DNA from: Polytrichum commune
Taxonomy: Eukaryota; Streptophyta; Polytrichopsida; Polytrichales; Polytrichaceae
DNA: 64,000 nt
Assembly (NCBI GenBank): GCA_950295325.1
Contig: OX485803.1
Span: 69,703,554 to 69,767,553 of the forward strand
Direction of reading: 5' to 3'
Shown here: one piece after another, positions 9,927 through 63,239 of the stretch
How the letters are laid out: each line of letters begins with the position of its first letter
How positions within the stretch are numbered: position 1 is the first letter of the stretch
Notes under the pieces: model-generated
What the model saw: the letters and a program-made list of their open reading frames with translations, nothing else
Told to the model about the DNA's origin: nothing
Database searches by the model: none
Position numbers and translations under genes: made by a program

Positions 9927-11095
9927 GAATACCCCTACTTATATGTCCGGGGGGACAACGGAATATAATTGACATACTCCAGGATCATCGAACCGCCTCA
10001 CATAGCTGAATAATGTTATGATCTCCATGGATGGTGTTCCAACTCACCTCTAAGGAGCTTTGAATCGGAGAGGTGGAAGTGGAAGGTAAGTTAGGCGGTG
10101 ATCGAGGTGGCAAGATTACGGTTGCCACATAATATCCCTACTTATATGTCTGAGGGGACCACATAATATAATTGACATATTCCAGGATCATGGAACCGCC
10201 TCGCATGGTTGAGTAACGTTATGATCTCCATTGACAGTGTTCCAACTCACATCCAAGATCATTGCGGCTGCCACAAAATACCCCTACTTATATGTCCAGG
10301 GGGACCACGGAACATAATTGACATATTCCAAGATCATGGAACCTCCTCACATGGCTAAGTAATGTTATGATCTCCATGGGCATTGTTCCAATTCACGTCT
10401 AAGGAGCTTCGCATGGGAGTGGTGGAAGTGGAAGGTAAGTTAGACGGCGATCGAGGCGGCAAGATTGCAGCTGCCACGGAATACCCCTACTTATATGTCC
10501 GGGAGGACCACGGAACATAATTGACATATTCCAGGATCATGGAACCGCCTCACATGGCTGAGTAATGTTATGATCTCCATGGACATTGTTCCAGTTCACA
10601 TCTAAGGAGCTTCGCATCGGAGAGGCGGAAGTGGAAGGTAAGTTAGGCGGCGACCGAGGCGGCAAGATTGCAGCTGCCACGGAATACCCCTACTTATATG
10701 TCCGGGAGGACCACGGAACATAATTGACATATTCCAGGATCATGGAACCGCCTCACACGACTGAGTAATATTATGATCTCCATGGACATTGTTCCAGTTC
10801 ACGTCTGAGGAGCAGCAGGAGCTTCGCATCGGAGAGGCGGAAGTGGAAGGTAAGTTAGGCGGCGACTGAGGCAGCAAGATTGCGGCTGCCACGGAATACC
10901 CCTACTTATATGTCTGGGAGGACCACGGAACATAATTGACATATTCCAGGATCATGGAACCGCCTCACATGGCTGAGTAATGTTATGATCTCCATGGACA
11001 TTGTTCCAGTTCACGTCTAAGGAGCTTCGCATCGGAGAGGCGGAAGTGGAAGGTAAGTTAGGCGGCGACCGAGGCGGCAAGATTGCGGCTGCCAT
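9927..11095. repeat. Tandem array of ~203-bp units
   Basis: The phrase ATACCCCTACTTATATGTC recurs at about 9930, 10132 (one change), 10276, 10481, 10683 and 10894. Spacings are about 202, 144, 205, 202 and 211 bp, the short unit having an internal deletion. Each unit continues through CATATTCCAGGATCATGGAA, ATGTTATGATCTCCATGG, GGAGCTTCGCATCGGAGAGG and GGTAAGTTAGGCGGCGA. Copies become more alike to the right. The array ends where CCATG is repeated three times. Minisatellite-like; no coding sense. Confidence 0.93.
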
Positions 11096-13249
11096 GCCAT
11101 GCCATGCTCACCCGTGGGGGTGTTCTTCGGGCCGAGCAAGCAGCGCGGTAAAATGAATGCAGCTCGGCAAGAAGGGTACCGGCCGGGTGGCCAAATCCCC
11201 AAGCTCCCCCTGCAGCATGCTTGCTTCCCATTAAGTGGAAGGTCGAGTCCCCTTGTACCCGCGAATATAATAGACCCATCCAAATATCACAGCAGCCGCG
11301 CGCAGTGAGCGAGCGAGCGAGCAAGGGAGGCTAGCTGCTTCTTCCTGAGGGAGCCTGGGCTTTATGAGTGAATGACACCAGGCTTGGATAGTCACCTGCC
11401 TTGCCTTGTCTTGCCTTGCCTGCTCCTGCAGACTAAGTTAGCCACTTCAAGCTCAGTCACTGGTTCAATTCAATCCAGCCACGGGTACAACCCCACTGCT
11501 TTCGCGTTGACCAGGCACGACCGTCATTTGACTCACAGGGAAAAAAATGGCCCACAATATATACTAACCACAATCCGGCCGGGCAACTCCCGGATTTATT
11601 AGCCAGCCAGCCAGCCAGCAGGGGACAGACATACAGTCCCCCCCCCCAAAGTAGCATGCAGTAGAGCAGGTGTGCTGCAGGCTGGTTGAGGTGGAGCTAG
11701 ACAGTAGACTTGACGAGACTTGGCTCAAGTGTGATGTGGTCGGGACGCCAACAGCGACCTAGGTTATTAAGTTATGTGGGTGGGATTTGGTTCTCACTGT
11801 TTGTGTTTTTTTCCTTCTCAGTATAAGTTTTTGTGTTCTTCAACTTCTACTGGTTACATGTGCACAGCAAATCTATAATGATGAACCACCAGCAAAAACC
11901 GAATCGAAAATCGGACCTACCGTGGTTTAGTTACGATTATCGGAAGTGCATGTTTGTTGGATTCTTTAGTGAAGTATTACAAAGGTTCTCCCATTCGTGT
12001 TCTGAGCTATTGAGTGTGGATGAATTGGTAAAATCCGAAGACGTAGTCCAATCTCTTTTGAACATGTGTTTTTATGGTGTTTGTTTTGGTTTTTGTTTTG
12101 GAAACAAATGAATATTGTGTTTGGTTGTTGATTTCACCTAGGCACACACCAATCAAATACAAATTCCTAATCAAGAAATGTAACCGAGTAACACCTGCAT
12201 ACGCTAGGCTTAGCACATCTTACTTGGTGTGGGCTTGGCTTGTCACTTGTGCGAGGTCTCATCAACGCCCCCAACTTGTCCTTGTGCCGGTCCTACGCAA
12301 CCAAAATGATCAACTGTACACCAGTCAAAATGCTTGTAGGGACTCTTCTCGATCAATATTGATGATCCTATAGCCCACCCCCAATCTCTTATCAATTTAG
12401 CATTATTGAGACATTCCCAAAATTACAATTGTGAATACTTTAATGATCCGTGCATGAATACGTACCAATGTTGGACTAGTATATCTGAATGCATGGTATC
12501 AATACACAAAATCTATAGTGATAGTAACCCTCAAAAATCGAGAAGGACTTCTATGTATGTCATTTGTCATCCACCTCTGCCCAAACACATCAGTGTACAT
12601 GTTTACATTCTAATCTTTTGAAATGGGACACATGGATGGGTGAGTTGTTCTAGGAACAATCTTAAATTGACAAACATGTCATTCATACAATCATATCCAC
12701 CATTAGAGATACATGTTTTCTTTATTAGGTTGTTACAATATTGGGATGAACATTTTTAGGCAAATTGGGAGGAATTGGACTTGGAACTTTAGGGGTTCAA
12801 CAACCTAACCAATTGGTATCAAAATTATAAAAATGGTCAGAAGGTTCTTGTGGCAACCAAAGGCAATGGAATTGAAACAATTTCATTTGTCGAGTCCCCA
12901 AAAGAACAATTTAAACAAAATTATAATAAGTTGTCATGTGTTGATACTTGCAGGAATCACAAGATGAGATGATCCCTGTATAACTAACAAAACCCATCAT
13001 GTGGCTCTGTACCATCCTTTTAATACTAAATTGATATTCAGGCAATTCCATCTAAGTATAAAAAAAATTTTAAAAATGGATGGTATATACAGACCCAAAC
13101 AGTGCAAATTCTCTTCTTCTTTTAAATCCTCATATACCCGTACCCTACCTGTATCAATTTTCATGTAAAGAAAAGTCCTCATCACATATACCCGAGTGAT
13201 ATCAAAAAAATGGGGATATCAGTCCCACACTGATATATACAATCTTCAA
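11096..13249. other. GC-richer patch then AT-rich DNA, no gene recognised
   Basis: 11096-11780 is noticeably GC-richer than its surroundings, with a GCGA repeat (about 11310) and a CCAG repeat (about 11605). An AATATAATAG sequence near 11266 could be part of a promoter. Several overlapping open frames exist on both strands, none with a recognisable domain. From 11780 on the sequence is AT-rich and unannotatable. Confidence 0.35.
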
Positions 13250-17924: not shown

Positions 17925-20049
17925 ATTTTAATCTGATAGCTAAGAAGTTGAACTATTGGAGCACGATGAAACTCTCACTAGCCGGAAGAGCAGTCATTTG
18001 TAACCAGGTATTGCTATCAACCCTATGGTTCTTCATTACGGTATGGGGAGGCTCCAATAAAATCTTATGCAAGATTCGGGGAGCAATTCGTAATTACCTC
18101 TGGTCAGGGAAGGAGCAACTTACACGTACCAGAGTAAGCTAGAGAGAATGTTCTCTAAAGAAGAAATACAGTGGTCTTGGATTGGTGGACCCGGAGGCGG
18201 CCAAGACCAATCTCCTATGTAAGTGGATAGTAAAGGCAATGGAACCTGGTGAGTCCAATCTCCAAATAATGCTAAGGTATAGATTGGCTAGGTTCAACCC
18301 ACAAAAAGGGTGTAGTTGGGGAGTAAGCTTGGACTGATTCACAAGCAAATTACACCAAGGATTTTCAGGGTCAAAGGTATGGGGACACATTAGTAAAGCA
18401 TGGAAAGTGATGGTGAAAGGTGTATATCAAATCCCGCCACGCACACGGATGGAACTTCTTCACTCCAACATTTGGTGGTTGGACGGAGTGGAACTCCTCA
18501 CAAAGGGGTTCGCCTATGCTAAAGGACTCCACCTTTACCGAAAAGGCATCCGGTGCGTAGATGACATATGGGATAGCACTAACCAAAATTTCCTAACATG
18601 GGCAAGAGCGCAAGAGAAATTTAACCTTATGGATACCGAGATAGGAGATTGGGAGGAGGTGACGAATAAAATCTCCGAACAATGGCGCACCTTGCTGGAA
18701 GACGATGAAGACACCGCATACCCCGGACAATGGCTTGGCTTCTATGTTGAAGATGAAGAAGACCCAGCCTTTGTCTTCTCGTGCACTGAGGAATTTACAC
18801 CGGAATGTCTACAATGGCACAATGTGACGCTACCAATCCCAGTACAATGTTTCACTGTAGGCACCCACTCAAGATGCCTTAGGGTGTGGGAAGGCCCTCT
18901 TGGGGAGATGCAAGGTTTCTTCCATAAGGTTAAAGTAATTTACACTAATAGAGGCCCTAAGAAGGAAGGGGAAAAAGAAGAAATAATTTTCTTCTATGGC
19001 AAGTTAGCAACCTTGGGCTAGGATCTTGATCGTTGGAGGTGGATGGATGGAGGATACTTCCTGGACTACACCACCAAGGATGGCCGTGACACCATCATCA
19101 ATAGGAACCCAGGCACCACCAGCGCGGTTGACAAATGGCAAGGATACCTCCCGGGTAACTATAGGCTCTCATGGTCACAAGTTTGGGACCCACTCTGATC
19201 CGGTAAAGAAGCCGCGTTCATTTGGTCAATTTGGCACAAGGCGGTTGCCATCAATGAGTGGAGGGCACGTATTGCACCGGTGTCCATTTCTAAACAATGC
19301 ATCTTTTGTCTCCCGAACATGAGTGAGTCAGTCAACCATAAATTCTAGGATTGTATCCAAGCTCGGAGAGCGTGGTGATGGGCCACGTTCATCATGCATG
19401 AACTATGTGGGGTGAGATCTAGTAACTATGACTGCTTTAACTGGAAGCAAGCGGTGTTCGGGGAAAGAATTCCTAGGAAATATGGCAAAATGAACAAAAT
19501 TTGGCATCTCCTCAGAGGCATTACTCTTTGGACCATTTGGATTGAACACAACGACAAAGTGTTTAATCATGAACAATGGCATGAATCCAAAGTCAAGTAC
19601 CGTATCTGGGACGATCTTATCCTCTACGCCAAGTTGGCTTGGAAGCGGGTGATCAAGCACATCAAGATTAGTCCTTTCTCGGCGGTCAATTTGCTTCAAA
19701 CTTTCGACAAAACCTGGGGCGCTAGGAATGTGCTTTGCAAGTGACACAATTTGCACATCGAATGGAATTGGAAAAGACAATTAGGCAATAGTTAGGGCTC
19801 GTGGGTGGTCTTGGTGGTTTGGGGATTGTCCTTGGTTGGTGGGGTGGGGGTGGTCCTCGGGTGGGCAGACGTGGTGGGTGGTCCTTGGTGGTTGTCGTCT
19901 GTCGGTCTTTTTTTTTTTACATGGCGGTGTTGCGCGCCTGAGGGGTCTCGCCTCCCCTCTGTGAGGGCACGTTTTCTCTTTGTTTCAATTCATTTGGCAT
20001 TGGCTCGGTTGGCCTTCTGTCAAAAAAAAAAAAAAAAAAAAAAAAAAAA
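17925..20049 (+). mobile_element. 5'-truncated L1-like LINE, ORF2 C-terminal part with poly(A) tail
   Basis: A single reading frame runs from about 17924 to the stop at 19742-19744. It starts in the end of the reverse transcriptase (KLNYWSTMKLSLAGRAVICN), passes the RNYLWSG and GLGLVDPEAAK thumb and connection motifs, and ends with a zf-RVT-type module (CIFCLPNMSESVNHKF..C) and WTIWIEHNDKVFNHE. Six in-frame stops interrupt it (18140, 18335, 19019, 19196, 19346, 19376), with no frameshift. All six are explained by single transitions from TGG or CGA codons. A G-rich 3' UTR (19800-19915) leads to 28 adenines (20022-20049). The left boundary is approximate and no target duplication was found. Dead copy, probably young. 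Confidence 0.9.
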
Positions 20050-27216: not shown

Positions 27217-27770
27217 CTTAGGAGAGGGGAAGGCTAAATCCCCTGTAGTAATGCACAGCTGGCTCGCGCGTGGCCACCATGGCACGTGGGCCCCACGGCG
27301 GTGCCTAGCCCATTTTACCCCCTAGGATAACAAATACGGCGGTACCTCACTAACGCCCGGGACACTGCGTAGTGTCCCGAACCCCAGTTGCCAGAACACT
27401 GCAACATCGAAACACTAATGTGTGTGGGCATGGCTGGGCATGGCCGCTTGACTACAAATCCCATATTGAGTGCACTTCACCTTCAAGGTCTAAAATCCAA
27501 TATATATCTACACTTCCAATTCGTAAATAAGCAATTGATTGGGATTTCATTCCGGAAGTGAAACCATCAATGGAGCACATAATTAACTTGGAGGTCAAAA
27601 ACATTACAAAATCCTTGTTAGCATTGAGGTTATAATTTTTGGGAGAAGGCTAAATCCCATGTAGTAACACACAACTAGCTCGCGTGTGGCCTAGCCCATT
27701 TGACCCCCCAAGGGTAACAAATACGGTGGTAACTCGCTGACGCCCGGAACATTATGCAGTGCCTCGAACC

Positions 27771-27899
27771 CTAGACGCCGGAACACTGCAACGCCGGAAC
27801 ACTACAACGCCAGAACACTACAACGCCAGAACACTACAACGCCAGAACACTACAACGCCGGAACACTGCAACATCGAAACACTGCAACGCCGGAACACT
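27771..27899. repeat. 16-bp tandem repeats inside the left foldback arm
   Basis: About eight copies of AACGCCGGAACACTAC with small changes. The matching stretch of the right arm (about 28764-28856) has about six copies, so copy number has changed since the arms formed. The open frame through this tract is a repeat artefact. Confidence 0.9.
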
Positions 27900-28886
27900 A
27901 ATGTGTGTGGGCATGGTTGGACATGGTTGCTTGACTACAAATCCCATATTGAGTGCCCTTCACCTTCAAGGTCTAAATCCAATATATATGTGCACTTCCA
28001 ATTAGTAAATAAGCAATTGATTGGGGTTTCATTCCCGAAGTGAAACCATCAACGAAGCACGTAAATAATTTGGAGGTCAAAAATGTTACAAAATCCTCAT
28101 TAACATTGAGGTTATAATTTTTGTGACTTATGATTTGAAATTGTCTTTGTCTTTCTAAAATGACACTTAAATTAGTATGTTGATTTTATATGTATATTTT
28201 ATGATATTTTATGTAAAGTTGTCTACTTTATTCATTGTAAAATGTCCAAACTGGAGTTAATTAATCATTGGAATTAATTCCAGTAAGTACATTCTATATT
28301 TTATTAGGCTCACTTAAGTTGGTAAGCATATTTTATTTATTTATTTAGGCTTAACTAGGATTAATCAAGATTCAATAGGCTTAATGACATTCAATCACAA
28401 TTAAATAGTTTGAATACGTATGAATACTTGTAAAAGTAGACAGCTTTACCTAAAATATCATAAAATCTACATATTAAATCAACACACTAATTTAAGTATC
28501 ATTTTAGAATGACAAAGATAATTTCAAATGATAAGTCACAAAAATTATATCCTCAATATTACTGAGGATTTTGTAACATTTTTGACCTCCAAATTATTTA
28601 CGTGCTTCGTTGATGGTTTCACTTCGGGAATGAAACCCCAATCAATTGCTTATTTATTAATTGGAAGTGCACATATATATTGGATTTAGACCTTGAAGGT
28701 GAAGGGCACTCAATATGGGATTTGTAGTCAAGCAACCATGTCCAACCATGCCCACACACATTAGTGTTCCGGCGTTGCAGTGTTTCGATGTTGCAGTGTT
28801 CCGGCGTTGTAGTGTTCTGGCGTTGTAGTGTTCCGGCGTTGCAGTGTTCCGGCGTCTAGGGTTCGAGGCACTGCATAATGTTCCGG

Positions 28887-29382
28887 CACGGGTAGATCAC
28901 TTAGCGCATTTTAAAAACGACGTGCGGCATAATATAGAGAGGATTAAAATCATTTGAAATAAGAATTATAAAGGAATTCCAAATAATGAAGGGGCCATTA
29001 AATGTAGACAATCCCATTATAAGTAAGTTAGATGGACATAAAATGTGGGCCATTATTTTTTGTAAAATTAATATAGGGGCTGAAGATAAGAATCCTAGAA
29101 GGTATGTTTAGTATGGTATGTAAATGGGTTTAGGACTCACGGGGATGGATGATGATTGGGATTTCCGTCTGTCCAAAATTACTTAAAAGGAATATAGAGT
29201 ACAAAAAATTGCAATGACTTGGACAATATAAGTAATGGAAGGGTGCAAACAAATGGGCCATTTTTGAAATTTAAGTAATTATAGGGAGGCTTTAATTCAA
29301 CCCTTGAAGGTAAATAGCCCCAAAACAAAAAAACCCCAGCCGCACGTAGTGCACAAAAATGCGTTAGAGTGATCTACCCGTG
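28887..29382. mobile_element. hAT-like non-autonomous element nested in the foldback arm
   Basis: Terminal inverted repeats of about 44 bp start CACGGGTAGATCACT and include GCATTTT and ACGTGCGGC. The 8-bp target duplication TGTTCCGG lies at 28879-28886 and 29383-29390. The opposite arm keeps the empty site once (27744-27751, reverse complement), proving the insertion came after the palindrome formed. No coding content. Confidence 0.9.
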
Positions 29383-29922
29383 TGTTCCGGGCGCCAACGA
29401 GTTACCACCGTATTTGTTACCCTTGGGGGGGTCAAATGGGCTAGGCCACACGCGAGCCAGTTGTGTGTTACTACATGGGATTTAGCCTTCTCCCAAAAAT
29501 TATAACCTCAATGCTAACAAGGATTTTGTAATGTTTTTGACCTCCAAGTTAATTATGTGCTCCATTGATGGTTTCACTTCCGGAATGAAATCCCAATCAA
29601 TTGCTTATTTATGAATTGGAAGTGTAGATATATATTGGATTTTAGACCTTGAAGGTGAAGTGCACTCAATATGGGGTTTGTAGTCAAGCGGCCATGCCCA
29701 GCCATGCCCACACACATTAGTGTTTCGACGTTGCAGTGTTTTGGCAACTGGGGTTCGGGACACTACGCAGTGTCCCGGGCGTTAGCGAGGTACCGCCGTA
29801 TTTGTTATCCTAGGGGGGTAAATGGGCTAGGCACCGCCGCGGGGCCCACGTGCCATGGTGGCCACGCGCGAGCCAGCTGTGCATTACTACAGGGGATTTA
29901 GCCTTCCCCCTTAGGAGAGGTG

Positions 29923-53078: not shown

Positions 53079-53198
53079 TGATGCGGTCATACCAAGGCTA
53101 CTACACTAGATCCCATGAGAACTCTGAAGTTAAGCGCCTTTGGACCGGAATAGTACTGGGATGGGTGACCTCCTAGGAAGTCCCGGTGCTGCATCCAT
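53079..53198 (+). rRNA. 5S rRNA-like sequence, nearly full length
   Basis: About 119 bp with the 5S layout: ATGCGGTCATACCAAGGCTA at the start, TAGATCCCATGAGAACTCTG, GAAGTTAAGCGCCTTTGGAC (A box), TAGTACTGGGATGGGTGACC (C box) and TCCCGGTGCTGCATCCATCT, with TTTT shortly after. A few positions differ from a typical plant 5S, so it may be a pseudogene or 5S-derived element. It is a single copy here, with no 5S tandem neighbours. The GGTCATACC start and GCGCCTTTGG stretch resemble 5S of non-flowering plants more than angiosperms (recalled, not aligned). Confidence 0.8.
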
Positions 53199-55945: not shown

Positions 55946-56519
55946 CTACATATAGAGAACGAAAAACAACAAGCCCTCCACTAGGCACATCTCATACCCA
56001 AAAATGACCTAGACATTGTTACAATATTAGTTACTCCAATCCATAATCAGTATCACAACCGCAATCCCCATGATGATCTCCTTCTAGACTCACATGTCAT
56101 AACGAATTTCAAAGCAGACACTAGCACATACGAAAAACCAACGATCCCACCAAAACTAAGAATTGAACCTAGAACGAAAAGTAATGCCATCCATATACAC
56201 TGCATACACCATAAAAACACACCCATCAAATACGATGAATTAAGCAAATGATTGCTATGGGCGACACCTTACAAATCCCTACAATATTCACACAAGTCAC
56301 ACCACCTACACATGCACATGTCCCAATAAACCCCAGTACAAAATGGTATGAACTCACATACCCCCCTAAGTTAATCATTCAAATCTTAAATATCCCTTAA
56401 TTATTAATCTAGAACAATGCCTAGCACACCCCCAAAATACTTGCCAAAATTCTACTACTACATAGACAGATCATTGAGACTACTCTATGAAATAACCATC
56501 AGACATTGGAATTATGAAA

Positions 56520-57840
56520 AAAACAAAGTATGGCATCTATAGCCCCACCAAAGGATCAAAAATTGCCAAAAGATTATTAGGACTACAAAACATTCTACGA
56601 GCATAATTGATGGATGTACACCATACCCACCGATTCCTCACCATCACGTACTGTGATGAACCAACCCATATCTTCACATACTACCTCAATGTCCTATATC
56701 TACTAAACACCCAAATGAAGCACCCCACGTGTTCCTTAACAACCACCCAAATAAAGCTATCCTTGAATCTATGGTCCAAATGTTACAATCCAACACACAA
56801 ACCACCACACTCCACAAAGTTATAGCTCCCACTAATATTGATGATAATGAACAAGCAAACGCACTAGCCAAAAGGGGAAACAAAATAAACCACAAATCCG
56901 CCATAGCACCATATGAGCACACACCTCCCACACCATACTATGTCCAAAAAGATTGGTGGCATTCATACGAAGGAAACACATGACAAAGGCACCGTCAAAC
57001 ACATCCTTAAATATGACAAAAGACATAACTTCGTAGCTATAGTAGGCCAAACACACCAATTATATAAATGGCTTGACAACGAGGACACAAATAAAATACT
57101 ATCAAATGACTTTTGGAAAAATCTAATTATTATAGATAAACTAATAACAAGCCTAATCAAATTTTGAACATGACAATATATGGGCTAAGCCCTAAAACAA
57201 CTCTTCTTTGGAAGAGAAGCCTAGTCATCAATAACATGCCTATATGCAACTCGCCACACGTAGATACATGAGTGCATGTACTACTTAAATGTAAACAATT
57301 GACAACACATTCATGCACCAATAACAAAAAAAAAAAAAAAAAACACAACAAAATTGTAAGGGAACTAAGTAAACTTCTTATATGAAACAACATATCAAGA
57401 CACTACCTACTCATGAACGCATGAACCTACAATGGACTACTCAAGACAACACTATACCAACATGGCTATTGTTGTGCACTTGCAATGCCCACAAATGCCA
57501 TTGCAATGCTACGTTTAAACTGAACATACTATGCGTCATAGATCATCCATATAACCACCCCCACCAAAAAGGCCTACACCATAAATCACAATACTTTTCA
57601 TAAAATGTACATACCCACATAAATTCCCACATAAACTCTCGATAGGATAACATCAAAATATCAACTGCTAACCAACAACATCATAACAAGAGGATGGAAC
57701 TTAGCCCCACTCATGGTCTTAGTTACAACCACAAGAGCCACCACACATATCCCATCAATGAAAAATTTAGAAACAAAACTTAATATCCCAGTTCCAAAAA
57801 TTGGGAGTACACTCAAACAAATCAACACTGTGACATAATC
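56520..57840 (+). mobile_element. Relic of an RNase H-type LINE, RNase H domain and C-terminus
   Basis: Frameshifted translation gives IYSPTKGSKIAKRLLGLQNI, EPTHIFTYYLNVLYLLNTQM, NIDDNEQANALAKRGNK (RNase H C-terminal motif), LSNDFWKNLIIID, ICNSPHVDT and VHVLLKCKQ (zinc module), TIPTWLLLCTC and ITRGWNLAPLMVLVTTTRAT. The expected acidic RNase H residues are lost: AELM reads A-stop-LM, FTD reads FTY, and the final NE..AD reads NE..AN. A poly-A tract interrupts it at about 57328. Homologous to 33865-34815 on the opposite strand. Inactive. Confidence 0.75.
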
Positions 57841-58555
57841 ATGCAACGTTATGTGTCTAAGTTTAGAATAATAGCATATATAGGTTTCTTCCTTGTTCTA
57901 TATTACAATGAATAGGGAGAATTGACCGCTATATTACCTCAGGGAGTGCACTATTCATTAAAACCAAGCATCACGTGCGTGCATGCCCCTTATTAAAATA
58001 CCCTTGTATACATTTTATTTTTGCTAAAATCAAGCAATATACTTACAAATCTCATTGCTTCAAAATACATTTCCATACATACACAAGGGTCCAAAAACAA
58101 ATATAGAAATTGTATATAACATGTGTACAAATGTTTGGAAATGCAAAAATATGGCCCTATTATATGTATAATATCAAATCATGGATTTTTAGTTATAAAG
58201 TCGTTACTTAGTGGATGAAAAAGCACATGATTCTTGGTCCAGGTCTGACTTGAACGCGTAAACGCGTAAATGCGTACTTTACATATATTTTTCTATAGCC
58301 TCATGTATATCTACTTCTTGCTTAATAGCAATATGTCTCTTGTACGTACATTTTGTACATGCTTGTTTTAAATAATACCCCTTTTGTGCACCCACGTGTA
58401 TAAATACAGTGCTTGAACAGTGCACTCCCTGGGTATATTACATTGTCCTACTAGTGTGGGGCTACCATTCGGGGTTACATGTTGCTATAACTTTTTTACC
58501 AACCATTTTTTTACAAACTAAATTATATCATATTCTTCGGTGTGCTTACTAACTA
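57841..58555. other. AT-rich DNA
   Basis: No gene. 58445-58550 (GGGGTTACATGTTGCTATAA, TTTTACCAACCATTT) is a decayed fragment related to the TA-flanked MITE at 58556. Confidence 0.4.
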
Positions 58556-59072: not shown

Positions 59073-60719
59073 CTATTTTATTCTACTGGGGGAATCTCAG
59101 AATTTGATGGTTTGTTTGTCATACCAAAGTATCAAATGCCAAAGTCACACTAACACCTTGAATATGGCACTGAAGACTTTGAAGTCGTATATAATGGCCT
59201 CTACTGTGCAGTTCAATCATGTACAAAAATTAAAATGACAAATGATAAAACTCCCGAAAGTGCACATCAAATTTTTTAACAATATTTATGGGTAGCCAAT
59301 GGCCATAGCCAATGCCCTAAGTACCTTTACTCTGGATGAGACCACCTGTTTTTGAGCCTCGGGGTGAGCAGACTTGCCACAATTCCCGGCTAGAGCTTCG
59401 TGTTGTCTACGTAAACTCATCCATTGGGAAGGTGAAACCACAATGAACCAATCTATAGTCTACACCTTTCTATTTCTAGACTATTTGACTCCTGCAATGG
59501 ACATGAGAGACTCCATGTTAATCTAGTGAAGACAAATCAACCCTCAACCTATGGGGAGCTTGTCTTGTAGGGGGAGAGGAAATTTTCACATACGGACATA
59601 CCTTTCATTCATCCAACATAAAAACCATGATATATCTAAGTACGCAACTAGGAGGTTAATATTTTTAGTTGATTCGACGACAAATATAGCTTTAGAGAAG
59701 ACCATGAATTAGTCTAGTTCAAGATATACAAGGTGAATCAACAATCATTTACCTTTATTAACTTTTGGTGTTAAATGGATGAGAGGTAGGCTCGTGCACG
59801 ATAATTCCCTCTCGTCGTTCTGTACTTAAGCACATTCATCCATGAAGGATTTGTTTACACAACCAGTACGAAGCTTTAGCTCAATTGCCTACCATATACT
59901 TCGTGACATCCCTAGCTATACATACCAAATACCTACACTAATTATGCCAACGGGTGCGTGTTACAATTCAGAGTTACATAGTGCTATACCTATTTAATGA
60001 GAATGAGAACATTTTACCAAGCAAAGTCATTTATGTTTTATAATGTCCTAACAACCTGGTGAACTTTTGTTAGTTAAAAGTTGAAACTCCTGAGTAAGAC
60101 AATATTGCACTGTGTAACTTTGAATAGTAGCCAGCACTAGTTGAGAAAATCCATGTAGTTACTTTGCTAAGTTATTGCCTAGATAGGTACTGTATTATAT
60201 CTAGATACCGTTATTCCTAGAAAGGTACTGTATAGTAGAACGGCCCATTCTATTGCTTAAAAGCCGGAGGATCCTCTACACAATGAAGCCTATTACGATT
60301 GCTGAAAGCGAATGTCTTAACTCCTGCATTTCGCCGCAAGATTGAATCCTTCTTCTCTCCCTGCAACACAGTTGGCGTGAAGTTGAATCATTCTGCTTCA
60401 ACTTGATGTCTTCTACCTGCAGGCTTGTGGTCTTTGCTTCTCTAAGTAGCTAGCGTCCGGCCAATCCGCTGTGCAAATGAATTGGAAGGGTTAGGGCTCA
60501 GGACAGTCGAGTGATTGCACCTGAAAGCTTGGGGAGGAGTCACAGTTGACGATATTCTGGTGAGACACCCTTGATTAGAATTTGCAGATCAGCAACAAGT
60601 GTTTGCTGTTGAAACATGGACTGACAATGATATTAAATTCACACCAGACTGTTCTGCAGGGTGATTAATACTACCGTTCGCTTGAGGCTGCACCGCCGGT
60701 TCGCGCTGATTGGGCCGAA
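59073..60719. other. Upstream region of the IRG-like gene, with a decayed MITE
   Basis: 59938-60140 (TACACTAATTATGCC, AATTCAGAGTTACATAGTG, CAAAGTCATTTATG.TTTATAATGTCC) is a diverged relative of the MITE at 58556. The rest should contain the IRG promoter and leader. Codon-like composition is absent until 60720, and no certain TATA box or 5' intron could be placed. Confidence 0.4.
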
Positions 60720-62072
60720 ATGGGGAATTCACAATCAAGCAGGGGCTTGAATGAGGATGGTGAGGCCATCAAAGGGGTACTAATGACTTACCTTCCCTAT
60801 GGTGTGGGCGCCATCGTTGCCCCAATCTTTGAGAAAATTACATCCTGGCTTGGAATTTTTCAGAAGAAACCGAGGCCATTGAATGATACCATGGAGGGGA
60901 TTCGGCAGGCAAATGATGCGGCTGCAAAAGAGAGAGAATTAGCCGCAAAGGAGCAAGAATTAGCGGCTGCGAAAGAACGAGAATCAGCTGCTGCGAAAGA
61001 ACAGGAATTGGCTGCTGCGAAAGAGCGTGAAGAGGCCGCTGCCTCTGCAACGCAACAAGCCCAGGCGGTCGTTGCCGAGGCACGCAAGCAAGAGGCGGCT
61101 GCCAAGAGCCGCGCGGATGTAGCTATGGCAGAGGCGCAGAAGGCGAACGACGCGCTCCAGCAAGGCATCCGTCCCGTTGTGATGCCTACTGACGAGCAGT
61201 ACAAGGCGACGATGAAGCGGATCCAGTACAACGCGGAGAAGTTCCACTTCGCTGTTTGCGGGACTTCCGGTAGTGGCAAATCCACGCTCATCAACGCATT
61301 CCGTGGCCTGACAAAACGTGACAGGAACGCGGCCGCCGTAGGCGTCACGGAGACGACCTCCCAAATCACACGATACCCTGACCCCCGCCCCGAGCTCCCC
61401 TACTCACGGTTCGTCTGGTACGACATCCCCGGCGCAGGAACGACAACTATCTCGGACTGGCAGTACTTCAACGACCAAGGGCTGTTCGCATTCGACTTCA
61501 TAATCATGGTGTACGACGTGCGCTTCACCAAGATCGACGTGAGCATCATTGAGAATTGCTACCGCTTCAACATCCCGGTGTTCATCGTGCGCAGCAAGGC
61601 CGACCAACACATTGACAACATGCTGAAGGAGCTTGAGCTTGACTGCTTGCCGGGCAGCGAGGACTACCAGACGGCATACCAGGAGGTCAAGACGAAGTAT
61701 GTCAAAGAGACGAAAGCGGATTTCGAAAGGCACATCAAGAACATGGCGGGAAACCCGGAGTTCGATGCACGGGATCGGCAAATGCTTCTGGGCCAACGCG
61801 TTTACATGGTGTCAGCCATCAATGTTCGGTCTCTGGTGCTGAAGGGCCGTCAGGTCGACAGCAGCAGGCTCATTGATGAGGCTCTGCTGGTGGAGGACTT
61901 GCTCAGCACGGCCGCGAGAAGGCGCTACTTTGAGGAGGAGTGGAAGGGCATTTTCAAGAGAGGGAGGGAGGCGCTCACTGGGGCATTCTCTACAGTCTTG
62001 AAATCTTCAGGACCATCATCATCATCATCATCATCTTCAGGTCGCATAACAGGGCGATCAATGCCAGTGTAG
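60720..62072 (+). CDS. IRG (p47, IIGP-type) GTPase with myristoylation signal and coiled coil
   Basis: Intronless 450-residue protein. MGNSQS at the start fits an N-myristoylation site; residues 20-46 are hydrophobic enough to contact membrane. Residues 61-150 are an alanine/glutamate-rich coiled coil built from AAKE(R/Q)EL repeats. The GTPase domain follows: P loop GTSGSGKS (181-188), switch region GVTETT (208-213), DIPGAG (235-240), RSKAD as the G4 motif (291-295) and VSAIN as G5 (364-368). A helical C-terminal part ends in a poly-Ser tract encoded by TCA repeats. The order, DIPG motif and length fit the IRG family, known in vertebrates for membrane remodelling at pathogen vacuoles; a plant function is not established. 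The ATG context (gaaATGGG) is good. Third positions are visibly GC-rich, unlike the AT-rich neighbourhood, which could reflect horizontal origin, retro-origin or codon selection. Confidence 0.9.
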   Translation: MGNSQSSRGLNEDGEAIKGVLMTYLPYGVGAIVAPIFEKITSWLGIFQKKPRPLNDTMEGIRQANDAAAKERELAAKEQELAAAKERESAAAKEQELAAAKEREEAAASATQQAQAVVAEARKQEAAAKSRADVAMAEAQKANDALQQGIRPVVMPTDEQYKATMKRIQYNAEKFHFAVCGTSGSGKSTLINAFRGLTKRDRNAAAVGVTETTSQITRYPDPRPELPYSRFVWYDIPGAGTTTISDWQYFNDQGLFAFDFIIMVYDVRFTKIDVSIIENCYRFNIPVFIVRSKADQHIDNMLKELELDCLPGSEDYQTAYQEVKTKYVKETKADFERHIKNMAGNPEFDARDRQMLLGQRVYMVSAINVRSLVLKGRQVDSSRLIDEALLVEDLLSTAARRRYFEEEWKGIFKRGREALTGAFSTVLKSSGPSSSSSSSSGRITGRSMPV

Positions 62073-62114
62073 ATGACAATCGAGTTGCACAATATGGTGC
62101 ACCTACTCAAGCCA

Positions 62115-62790
62115 TGTATAGGGCATAACCAATCAACTCATGAAGAGAAACCATAGGTTAAAACGACTGAAATGTTCTTGATAGAGAATACATGAAAGCA
62201 ATTGCAACTAGTGGGAAGTGCTCCACACTTGATGAATGACTGGATATGTTTTCATAACAAAGTCTTGTTCATTGTTTATCATGGTATAATACAATCTAAT
62301 ACCATGCCCATAACATGGGCAACAACAATGCATAGATTTTAGTCACCTACTTGACAAGCCGTTTCTGGGGCCTAACCAATCTACTCATAGACAGAAATGC
62401 TCTCCACTCGATGAATGACCAATTATGTTTTCATAACAAAGTGTTGTCTGGAGCTCACTATGATATAATACAATCTAGTATATATGTTTGTCTACGTTGT
62501 TTAGTATCATGGAGAACAACAATGCTTGGATTATATGTTACCTACTCAAACTGCAAATATGGGGCGTAACAACTGCTCATGGACAATATAAAATGGAGAT
62601 AATGCATACAGTCCTTTCTGGATGGATAAAGAAGGATATGGGAGTTGCAACTTTCAGCAGACTCGCTCTCCACTTGATGACTAACCGATTATGTTTTCAA
62701 CATAATGGTCTTGTCCACCGCAATATGTCCAACACGTTCTTGTCCATCGGTTATTATGGTGCAATACAGTGTGTATTTTTTTTGATGAGT
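62115..62790. repeat. Three imperfect tandem repeats 3' of the IRG-like gene
   Basis: GGGCATAACCAATCAACTCA (about 62128), GGGCCTAACCAATCTACTCA (about 62367) and GGGGCGTAACAACTGCTCAT (about 62562) each precede a GATGAATGACC..TTATGTTTTCATAAC-type block. Spacing is about 239 and 195 bp. An AATAAA at 63126 is a possible distal poly(A) signal. Confidence 0.75.
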
Positions 62791-63239
62791 TTACATTATT
62801 TACCACCCGGCCAAGCCACAACAACACTATTGCCAGGATTACAATCATAATACACTACTCCCAATGGTCGTCTATGCGGTTCCAGACGTTCCTGCCTGTG
62901 CATGGCCAAGCCTCTAGAATGCAGCTGTGGAAGTTTGTAACTGATCAAAGCCCGATTGTGGTCTCTTTGCAGGCAAACTTTCATTAATTACGACCTAATG
63001 TTCTCTGGGTGCATGAAGCTCTTTATCTCATCTGTGCCATTGCTCTTTATCTCATTTATTTACCAGGTTTGTAATGAAGTAGTCGGTTTCCAGAATCTGG
63101 ATGCAAAGTTTGTTTGAACCTGTGCAATAAATTAATGCATATCTTCAGGATCAGAGGAGTATTATCTGTCAGGCTACAAGGAACCCATTCACAATACATG
63201 GGGAAACAATGCTTGATTCATTGCAGTAGTTAGGTCTTA
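62791..63239. other. No recognisable feature
   Basis: Spacer beyond the IRG 3' repeats; only the AATAAA at 63126-63131 is notable. Confidence 0.35.

Follow-up and report, generated by a model that had tools for sequence, protein, structure and literature searches.

In a 64-kb stretch of the genome of the moss Polytrichum commune (64,000 nucleotides, hereafter the window) lies an open reading frame, copy A, that encodes a protein with an IRG-type G domain. We posit, with a probability of about 0.5, that copy A is native to the moss nuclear genome, where it belongs to a set of four paralogues (copies A to D), and that it encodes an N-myristoylated GTPase that would assemble on and remodel a membrane. 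The plant nuclear location proposed in the first-pass annotation of this DNA is supported, and the motifs listed there as those of the IRG/IIGP family (GTSGSGKS, DIPGAG, SKAD, and SAIN) are all found in the frame, the last of them at residues 365 to 368. The reading of SAIN as G5 is that annotation's own assignment, and no profile match extends that far.

Table 1. Coordinates of copy A, its predicted leader intron, and its paralogues (positions are those of the window unless contig C1 of the assembly is named)
Feature	Position	Strand	Basis or remark
Predicted 100-bp GT-AG intron in the 5' leader (CTG/GTGAGA ... TTCTGCAG/GG)	60560..60659	+	Splice-site pattern
Copy A, complete CDS, IRG-type G-domain protein	60720..62072	+	ATG to stop, 450 aa
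N-myristoylation motif MGxxxS (MGNSQS)	60720..60737	+	Sequence; 4/4 copies; motif definition from the available part of PMC1297648
Variable segment, residues 17-50, hydrophobic in copy A; candidate membrane-contacting helix	60768..60869	+	Hydropathy
Pro/Gly-free Ala/Glu/Lys/Arg-rich helix, residues 61-148	60900..61163	+	Length varies among copies
24-nt (8-residue) tandem repeat inside the Pro/Gly-free helix	60921..61031	+	4.8 copies, 76% matches
IRG-type G domain, residues 171-301	61230..61622	+	PF05049 positions 32-158 of 375
G1 (P-loop) GTSGSGKS, residues 181-188	61260..61283	+	Sequence and alignment of copies
G3 DIPGAG, residues 235-240; Ala239 at the Ras Gln61 position	61422..61439	+	Position assigned from the motif
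G4 SKAD, residues 292-295 (SKAN in copy D)	61593..61604	+	Alignment of copies
Post-G4 region, residues 302-405, common to the four moss copies	61623..61934	+	Without detectable similarity to the IRG helical domain
Trinucleotide (CAT) repeat coding for a serine-rich C-terminal tail	62014..62039	+	Tail differs in copies C and D
Copy B start codon	C1:69796515		Frame of 434 aa
Copy C start codon	C1:69831626		Frame of 439 aa
Copy D start codon	C1:74490576 (locus L004, 1330-2439)		Frame of 369 aa

The family assignment is carried by profile and structure-database searches. In the comparison with the IIGP family that the first-pass annotation suggested, PF05049 leads, with 87.2 bits over residues 171 to 301 of copy A (E 1.6e-24; cut-off, 24), 58 bits ahead of the next Pfam family; the runners-up, RsgA and MMR_HSR1, score below 29 bits each. 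Nor does a dynamin-like or AIG1 family match better: Dynamin_N scores 14.9 bits, under its cut-off of 27, and AIG1 is absent among the 22 Pfam families matched by copy A. All four moss copies pass the PF05049 cut-off, and the family has matches in 0 of 14 control genomes. When the PDB was searched with copy A, the top 13 of 26 matched sequences were IRGs, each at E 2.9e-13 or better, led by Tgtp2 (7ves; E 1.6e-19), and the best non-IRG chain, EngB, was at E 0.064; a profile of the four copies returned 14 matches, 13 of them IRGs. We take 1tq4 and 5fph to be Irga6/IIGP1, 7ves to be Tgtp2/Irgb6, and 7c3k to be Irgb10, all from mouse. Copy A and Tgtp2 also have residues in common outside the generic motifs (e.g., Y249, D259-F260, R268-F269, D273, and V290-R291). 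Could copy A nevertheless be a generic Era/EngB-like or an AIG1/dynamin-type GTPase that merely resembles the IRGs? The MMR_HSR1 match, at 28.8 bits, does exceed that family's own cut-off of 21.9, and the alanine and the undetected helical domain described below would fit such a protein, but the 58-bit lead of PF05049, the missing AIG1, and the gap between EngB and all 13 IRG sequences in the PDB make this reading improbable. Searches of two further collections returned matches of other kinds: the 25 best of 51 NCBIfam families matched by copy A all stay below their cut-offs and are models of GTPases in general, of ABC proteins, and the like, and PADLOC gives a partial match to LeoBC that includes the P-loop (27.2 bits, residues 102 to 238).

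Within the G domain, G1 (GxxGxGKS; GTSGSGKS) and G3 (DxPG; DIPGAG) are present in 4/4 copies, and G4 ([ST]KxD) reads SKAD in copies A, B, and C and SKAN in copy D. At the position of Ras Gln61, all four moss copies have alanine, Tgtp2 has isoleucine, and a Flavobacterium relative has cysteine. A large hydrophobic residue at this position is common to IRGs but “far from diagnostic,” according to the available part of PMC1297648, and the moss alanine is not such a residue. The C-terminal helical domain of IRGs went undetected by sequence in each comparison: the PF05049 match of copy A ends at position 158 of 375, the four-copy profile aligns with IRG chains of the PDB to profile position 315 to 316 at the latest, the moss copies align with a three-sequence bacterial profile over 119 columns that are all G domain, and a Pfam scan of residues 281 to 450 of copy A finds 0 families at E 0.01. 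A divergent helical domain in the moss proteins is possible, as its absence here is one of sequence similarity only. Because the helical domain is undetectable in this way and alanine occupies the Gln61 position, we class the moss protein, by its sequence, as a variant whose G domain is of the IRG type and leave it outside the canonical p47 IRGs; the earlier identification thus stands for the G domain and not for an IRG outright.

Copies A, B, and C begin with MGNSQS (MGNSQSS in copy A) and copy D begins with MGQSES, that is, with the predicted myristoylation motif MGxxxS in all four, in agreement with the N-myristoylation signal noted before. The same motif is myristoylated in Irga6, which is membrane bound (PMC1297648, available part). 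The highest 19-residue hydropathy of copy A (1.57) starts at residue 19; because the maxima of copies B, C, and D lie elsewhere and their versions of the segment at residues 17 to 50 are shorter, the hydrophobic segment is a trait of copy A and no common feature of the family. What had been called a long coiled coil corresponds to the Pro/Gly-free stretch at residues 61 to 148. The stretch itself is there, but its length differs from copy to copy, with copy D lacking much of it, and it may be read as a coiled coil or as a single helix. The single-helix reading is poorly supported, because residues 61 to 150 of copy A have only 3 + 3 opposite-charge pairs at i,i+4.

The gene had also been described as intronless, which is true of its uninterrupted coding sequence but not of its leader, where a GT-AG intron is predicted in 4/4 copies with a similarly placed donor/acceptor pair. 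Over the 330 nt that precede its start codon, copy A has no GTRAG site other than this donor. Per 330-nt upstream stretch, there is one GTGAG donor in copies A and B and two in copies C and D, followed by a TGCAG acceptor, for which we picked by hand the TGCAG nearest the start codon (YAG sites number 12, 12, 8, and 9 in copies A to D). All 14 upstream ATGs within 150 nt of the start codons (2, 2, 6, and 4 in copies A to D) fall inside the predicted introns, a count that uses the downstream donor in copies C and D, comes from related copies, and concerns introns that take up about 60% of the 150-nt stretch; more ATGs are present farther upstream. These ATGs lend the predicted leader intron modest support. 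A single coding exon and a leader intron in all four copies, if the prediction holds, would be the layout of the mouse Irg genes, in which a single long coding exon lies behind 5'-untranslated exons (PMC1297648, available part).

The GC content of the kilobase at 61001 to 62000 is 57.7% and that of 62001 to 63000 is 39.8%, so the difference from the flanks that had been claimed is real, but ordinary coding sequence of this genome, as sampled by P450 stretches, shows the same contrast. Copy A has a GC content of 0.551 and a GC3 of 0.656 (0.641 to 0.705 in its three paralogues); the P450 control, which comprises the best 20 of 98 stretches of one gene family, including 3 that have one stop codon and were kept, has a mean GC of 0.551, a GC3 of 0.670 (standard deviation, 0.101; range, 0.505 to 0.866), and outer flanks of 0.423. 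Set against the genome in this way, the GC3 of copy A shows no unusual composition. Two other frames of the window have a lower GC3, of 0.535 (the TPD1-like gene) and 0.495 (a 204-aa open reading frame). In this moss genome, a GC-rich and intron-free frame is by itself no sign of foreign DNA.

The assembly comprises 408 Mb in 64 contigs, and it is the 77.9-Mb contig C1, which also has P450 genes, that contains the window. All 98 P450 matches (from 92 scored candidates of 376) are on contigs C1 to C7 only, a distribution that suggests seven chromosomes, the number also seen in Polytrichaceae. Contig C8, which we read as the plastid genome, has psaA and psaB in intact form, and these genes point to a moss: their best PDB matches are 8htu, 6l35, 7ksq, and 7xqp, photosystem I entries of Physcomitrium patens, with psaA at 1724 bits, against 1698 for 9lut in third place and 1651 or less for seed-plant entries among the best 60 of 84 matches. 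IFT57, tried as a marker of the plant group, was uninformative, with six overlapping matches at a single place that cover just the later part of the model and with matches in 3 of 14 control genomes as well. A recent transfer into the moss, or contamination of the assembly, would be in keeping with the GC contrast and the intron-free frame, but the ordinary GC3, the position in so large a contig alongside P450 genes, the roughly 1.5 kb of upstream flank common with copy B (95.6% match), and the divergence of the paralogues (dS 0.16 to 0.78) all speak against it, and we grant it next to no probability. The recent acquisition envisaged earlier is likewise at odds with the dS of 0.76 to 0.78 to copy D, the duplication of flanks with the gene, and the predicted leader intron. 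Also rejected were a phage or plasmid origin, since the copy A protein matches none of 50,697 phage and 72,556 plasmid records at E 0.01, and a viral origin, since 0 of 39 pattern-matching stretches among viral contigs encode a relative.

Elsewhere in the window, a TPD1 (tapetum determinant 1) C-terminal domain protein is encoded at 216 to 854 on the minus strand (PF24068, 110 bits), and the 204-aa open reading frame at 18407 to 19021 (plus strand) has 0 Pfam matches at E 0.01. The sole Rfam match in the window at the gathering threshold is a complete 5S rRNA at 53079 to 53197 on the plus strand (99.2 bits, positions 1 to 120 of 120), which may be either a 5S gene of the dispersed kind or a segment of a 5S-carrying transposon. 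Nested inverted repeats at 27226 to 29909 look like a large foldback or palindromic element; one pair of arms is 489 nt long and 98% complementary, the other 423 nt long and 96% complementary. At 9928 to 11194, in a GC-richer stretch, a 300-nt unit occurs in five overlapping copies, which are 63 to 88% identical to the reference copy and have 3 of 4 spacings at 203 to 212 nt. The GC skew of 56001 to 58000 is strong, at −0.42 and −0.28 per kb, and the AT skew there is positive.

Protein and Pfam searches of the genome located four copies, and a DNA search recovered them again, together with five short matches (37 to 62 bp). Copies A, B, and C lie within about 69 kb, and copy D is 4.7 Mb from copy A. 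Identity to copy A is 91% (B), 85% (C), and 67% (D) in the multiple alignment and 83%, 82%, and 63% by BLAST. With a Nei-Gojobori script applied to six pairs over residues 1 to 405 (gapped codons and residues beyond 405 excluded), dN/dS is 0.25 (A-B), 0.37 (A-C), 0.26 (A-D), 0.24 (B-C), 0.24 (B-D), and 0.26 (C-D), and dS is 0.16 to 0.18 among copies A, B, and C and 0.76 to 0.78 to copy D; the family is therefore under purifying selection, maintained, and not young. By region, dN/dS is 0.14 to 0.32 for residues 148 to 301, 0.15 to 0.40 for residues 302 to 405, and 0.16 to 0.64 for residues 1 to 147, where the A-C pair, at 0.64, is under weaker constraint.

The cluster also bears marks of rearrangement. 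Copies A and B match over 1,567 bp (95.6%), a match that takes in the first 59 bp of the frame and, ahead of it, roughly 1.5 kb of flank, as far as the fetched locus reaches; another match extends about 0.8 kb beyond the stop codon. The 5' region of copy C is a mosaic (locus L003, 646 to 1212) that includes a relic of a D-type gene start: an A-type leader gives way to 143 bp that resemble the beginning of D (85%), then to 423 aligned positions that resemble the DNA upstream of D (90%), and finally to an A-type acceptor and coding sequence. Of the three breaks, two coincide with the acceptor end of the predicted leader intron. The mosaic points to an unequal exchange between A-type and D-type genes, which would have given copy C a D-type upstream region. 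Gene conversion would fit the uneven dS between copies A and B (0.247 for residues 148 to 301 versus 0.076 for residues 302 to 405). The tails of copies C and D differ from the others, and some copies could be decaying. In Ras mutants, G4 changes of the SKAN kind can alter guanine recognition; copy D, with SKAN but with G1 and G3 intact, may have an altered guanine recognition or nucleotide specificity.

How did a moss come to have such a gene? The comparison that bears on this question consists of pairwise scores of moss, mouse, and three bacterial sequences, with similarity over about 130 residues. Against the G domain of copy A, mouse Tgtp2 scores 85.9 bits, Irga6 83.6, the Flavobacterium protein 77.0, and the Deinococcus and Azospirillum proteins 45.8 and 38.9; the mouse and Flavobacterium scores are too close to decide the origin. 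IRGs are rare in the bacterial set covered here. A pattern scan of genome contigs found at least one relative among 592 pattern matches. In the phylum of Flavobacterium, PF05049 has any match in 8 of 395 genomes and a match over the cut-off in 2, one of them the seed (scoring covered four candidates per genome in the 28 listed). Searched against plasmids, the Flavobacterium protein matches 19 records, with at least 80% coverage in 2 of the 19 (15 of them listed). Cyanobacterial IRG-like GTPases are also named in the available part of PMC1297648.

Descent from an old eukaryotic IRG-type gene that most plants have lost and some mosses retain is a reading that we hold at somewhat under even odds. 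The native GC3, the old divergence of copy D, a similarity to animal IRGs at least equal to that to bacterial ones, and a predicted leader intron ahead of a single coding exon, as in mouse, would all agree with it, but it requires many losses, the available part of PMC1297648 records no unambiguous IRG outside vertebrates as of 2005, and similarity over about 130 residues cannot decide descent. An ancient horizontal transfer from a bacterium or other donor into the moss lineage, with later gain of the N-terminal helix and loss of the helical domain, is slightly the less probable of the two. The Flavobacterium protein, which matches most of the IRG profile, is 36% identical to copy A over residues 169 to 300, and the coding frame has no introns, whereas dynamin-type genes of this genome match mostly in exon-sized pieces (2 of 24 span at least 140 of 168 positions). 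Yet an intronless frame is normal in mouse Irg genes too (PMC1297648, available part), the moss G domain is slightly closer to Tgtp2 and Irga6 than to the Flavobacterium protein and far above the Azospirillum and Deinococcus ones, bacterial IRGs are as rare as the survey above indicates, and no donor can be named.

On the reading that we favor, by analogy with the mouse proteins, the product of copy A would be an IRG-type GTPase with a membrane anchor, plausibly an effector that acts on membranes in a dynamin-like way or in defense. The myristoyl group would tether the protein to a cell membrane, the helix of variable length might serve as a stalk or spacer, and GTP binding would drive G-domain dimerization and assembly on the membrane, as in mouse IRGs, so that the membrane would be remodeled. 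Without a detected helical domain, assembly may work differently or not at all. Is the role one in stress or defense rather than housekeeping? The small shuffled cluster and the copy with an altered G4 hint at the former, but this is a guess, drawn from the family name, the shuffling of the cluster, and the variable ends. It is nearly an even prospect that the protein is instead a constitutive endomembrane GTPase with no defense role, active in traffic or in shaping plastids or lipid droplets: the G domain is under purifying selection, the myristoylation motif is kept, and no data tie the gene to pathogens, against which the shuffled cluster and the variable stalk length and tails, unusual for a housekeeping gene, weigh weakly.

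Beyond the membrane-remodeling GTPase that we favor, a bolder and quite unlikely possibility is that mosses have their own immunity-type GTPase system, in which a myristate-anchored IRG G domain would sit on a length-variable repeat-helix stalk that replaces the animal helical domain, and effector-like (SKAD) and regulator-like (SKAN) copies would evolve as their upstream regions and 5' ends are shuffled in tandem. If this were true, plants would have a cell-autonomous GTPase defense built independently of, or long before, the vertebrate one, the setting in which IRG defense is described in the available part of PMC1297648. More generally, a moss family that is maintained and combines the same type of G domain as IRGs with a myristoylation motif and a similar gene layout would open both its origin and its minimal membrane-acting machinery to tests in plants amenable to knockouts. 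Automatic annotation has probably picked up the family already, since databases presumably label some bryophyte proteins “IRG-type G domain-containing.” Among the listed titles and abstract openings from the open-license PMC literature, we found none on plant IRGs, and no open-license PMC paper was found that brings an inducible GTPase together with Physcomitrium; in the available main texts of PMC12448838, PMC12890914, and PMC12454661, the word GTPase has 0 occurrences.

Compared with mouse IRGs, the moss proteins are without a detectable C-terminal helical domain, carry a long N-terminal repeat helix, have alanine and not isoleucine at the Gln61 position, presumably have a longer spacing from G4 to SAIN, and belong to a host with no interferon. 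The likenesses are an IRG-type G domain with G1, G3, G4, and surrounding residues in common, the MGxxxS start (found in eleven mouse proteins), a frame on one long exon behind leader exons (with the moss leader intron predicted), and clustered, duplicating genes, the mouse side of the last three being taken from the available part of PMC1297648. The IRG-like GTPases of Flavobacterium saccharophilum (L012), Azospirillum thermophilum (L021), and Deinococcus sp. QL22 (L022) have the G domain in common with the moss copies. Unlike the moss copies, the Flavobacterium protein (L012, 2944 to 4059; 371 aa) matches PF05049 positions 14 to 313 with 154 bits, helical part included, matches Irga6 (5fph) over 265 residues, and is without an N-terminal helix or myristoylation motif; it also has a weak partial PADLOC match to LeoA that includes the P-loop (38.3 bits, residues 6 to 86). 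Copy D, with SKAN for SKAD, resembles the IRG regulators and quasi-GTPases (the GMS group and IRGQ) in that its guanine recognition may differ, but the P-loop lysine that is changed in GMS proteins (PMC1297648, available part) is retained in copy D. Finally, the dynamin-type GTPases of the same genome (PF00350) are presumed to be of the same membrane-remodeling class but belong to another Pfam family, and they match mostly as exon-sized pieces.
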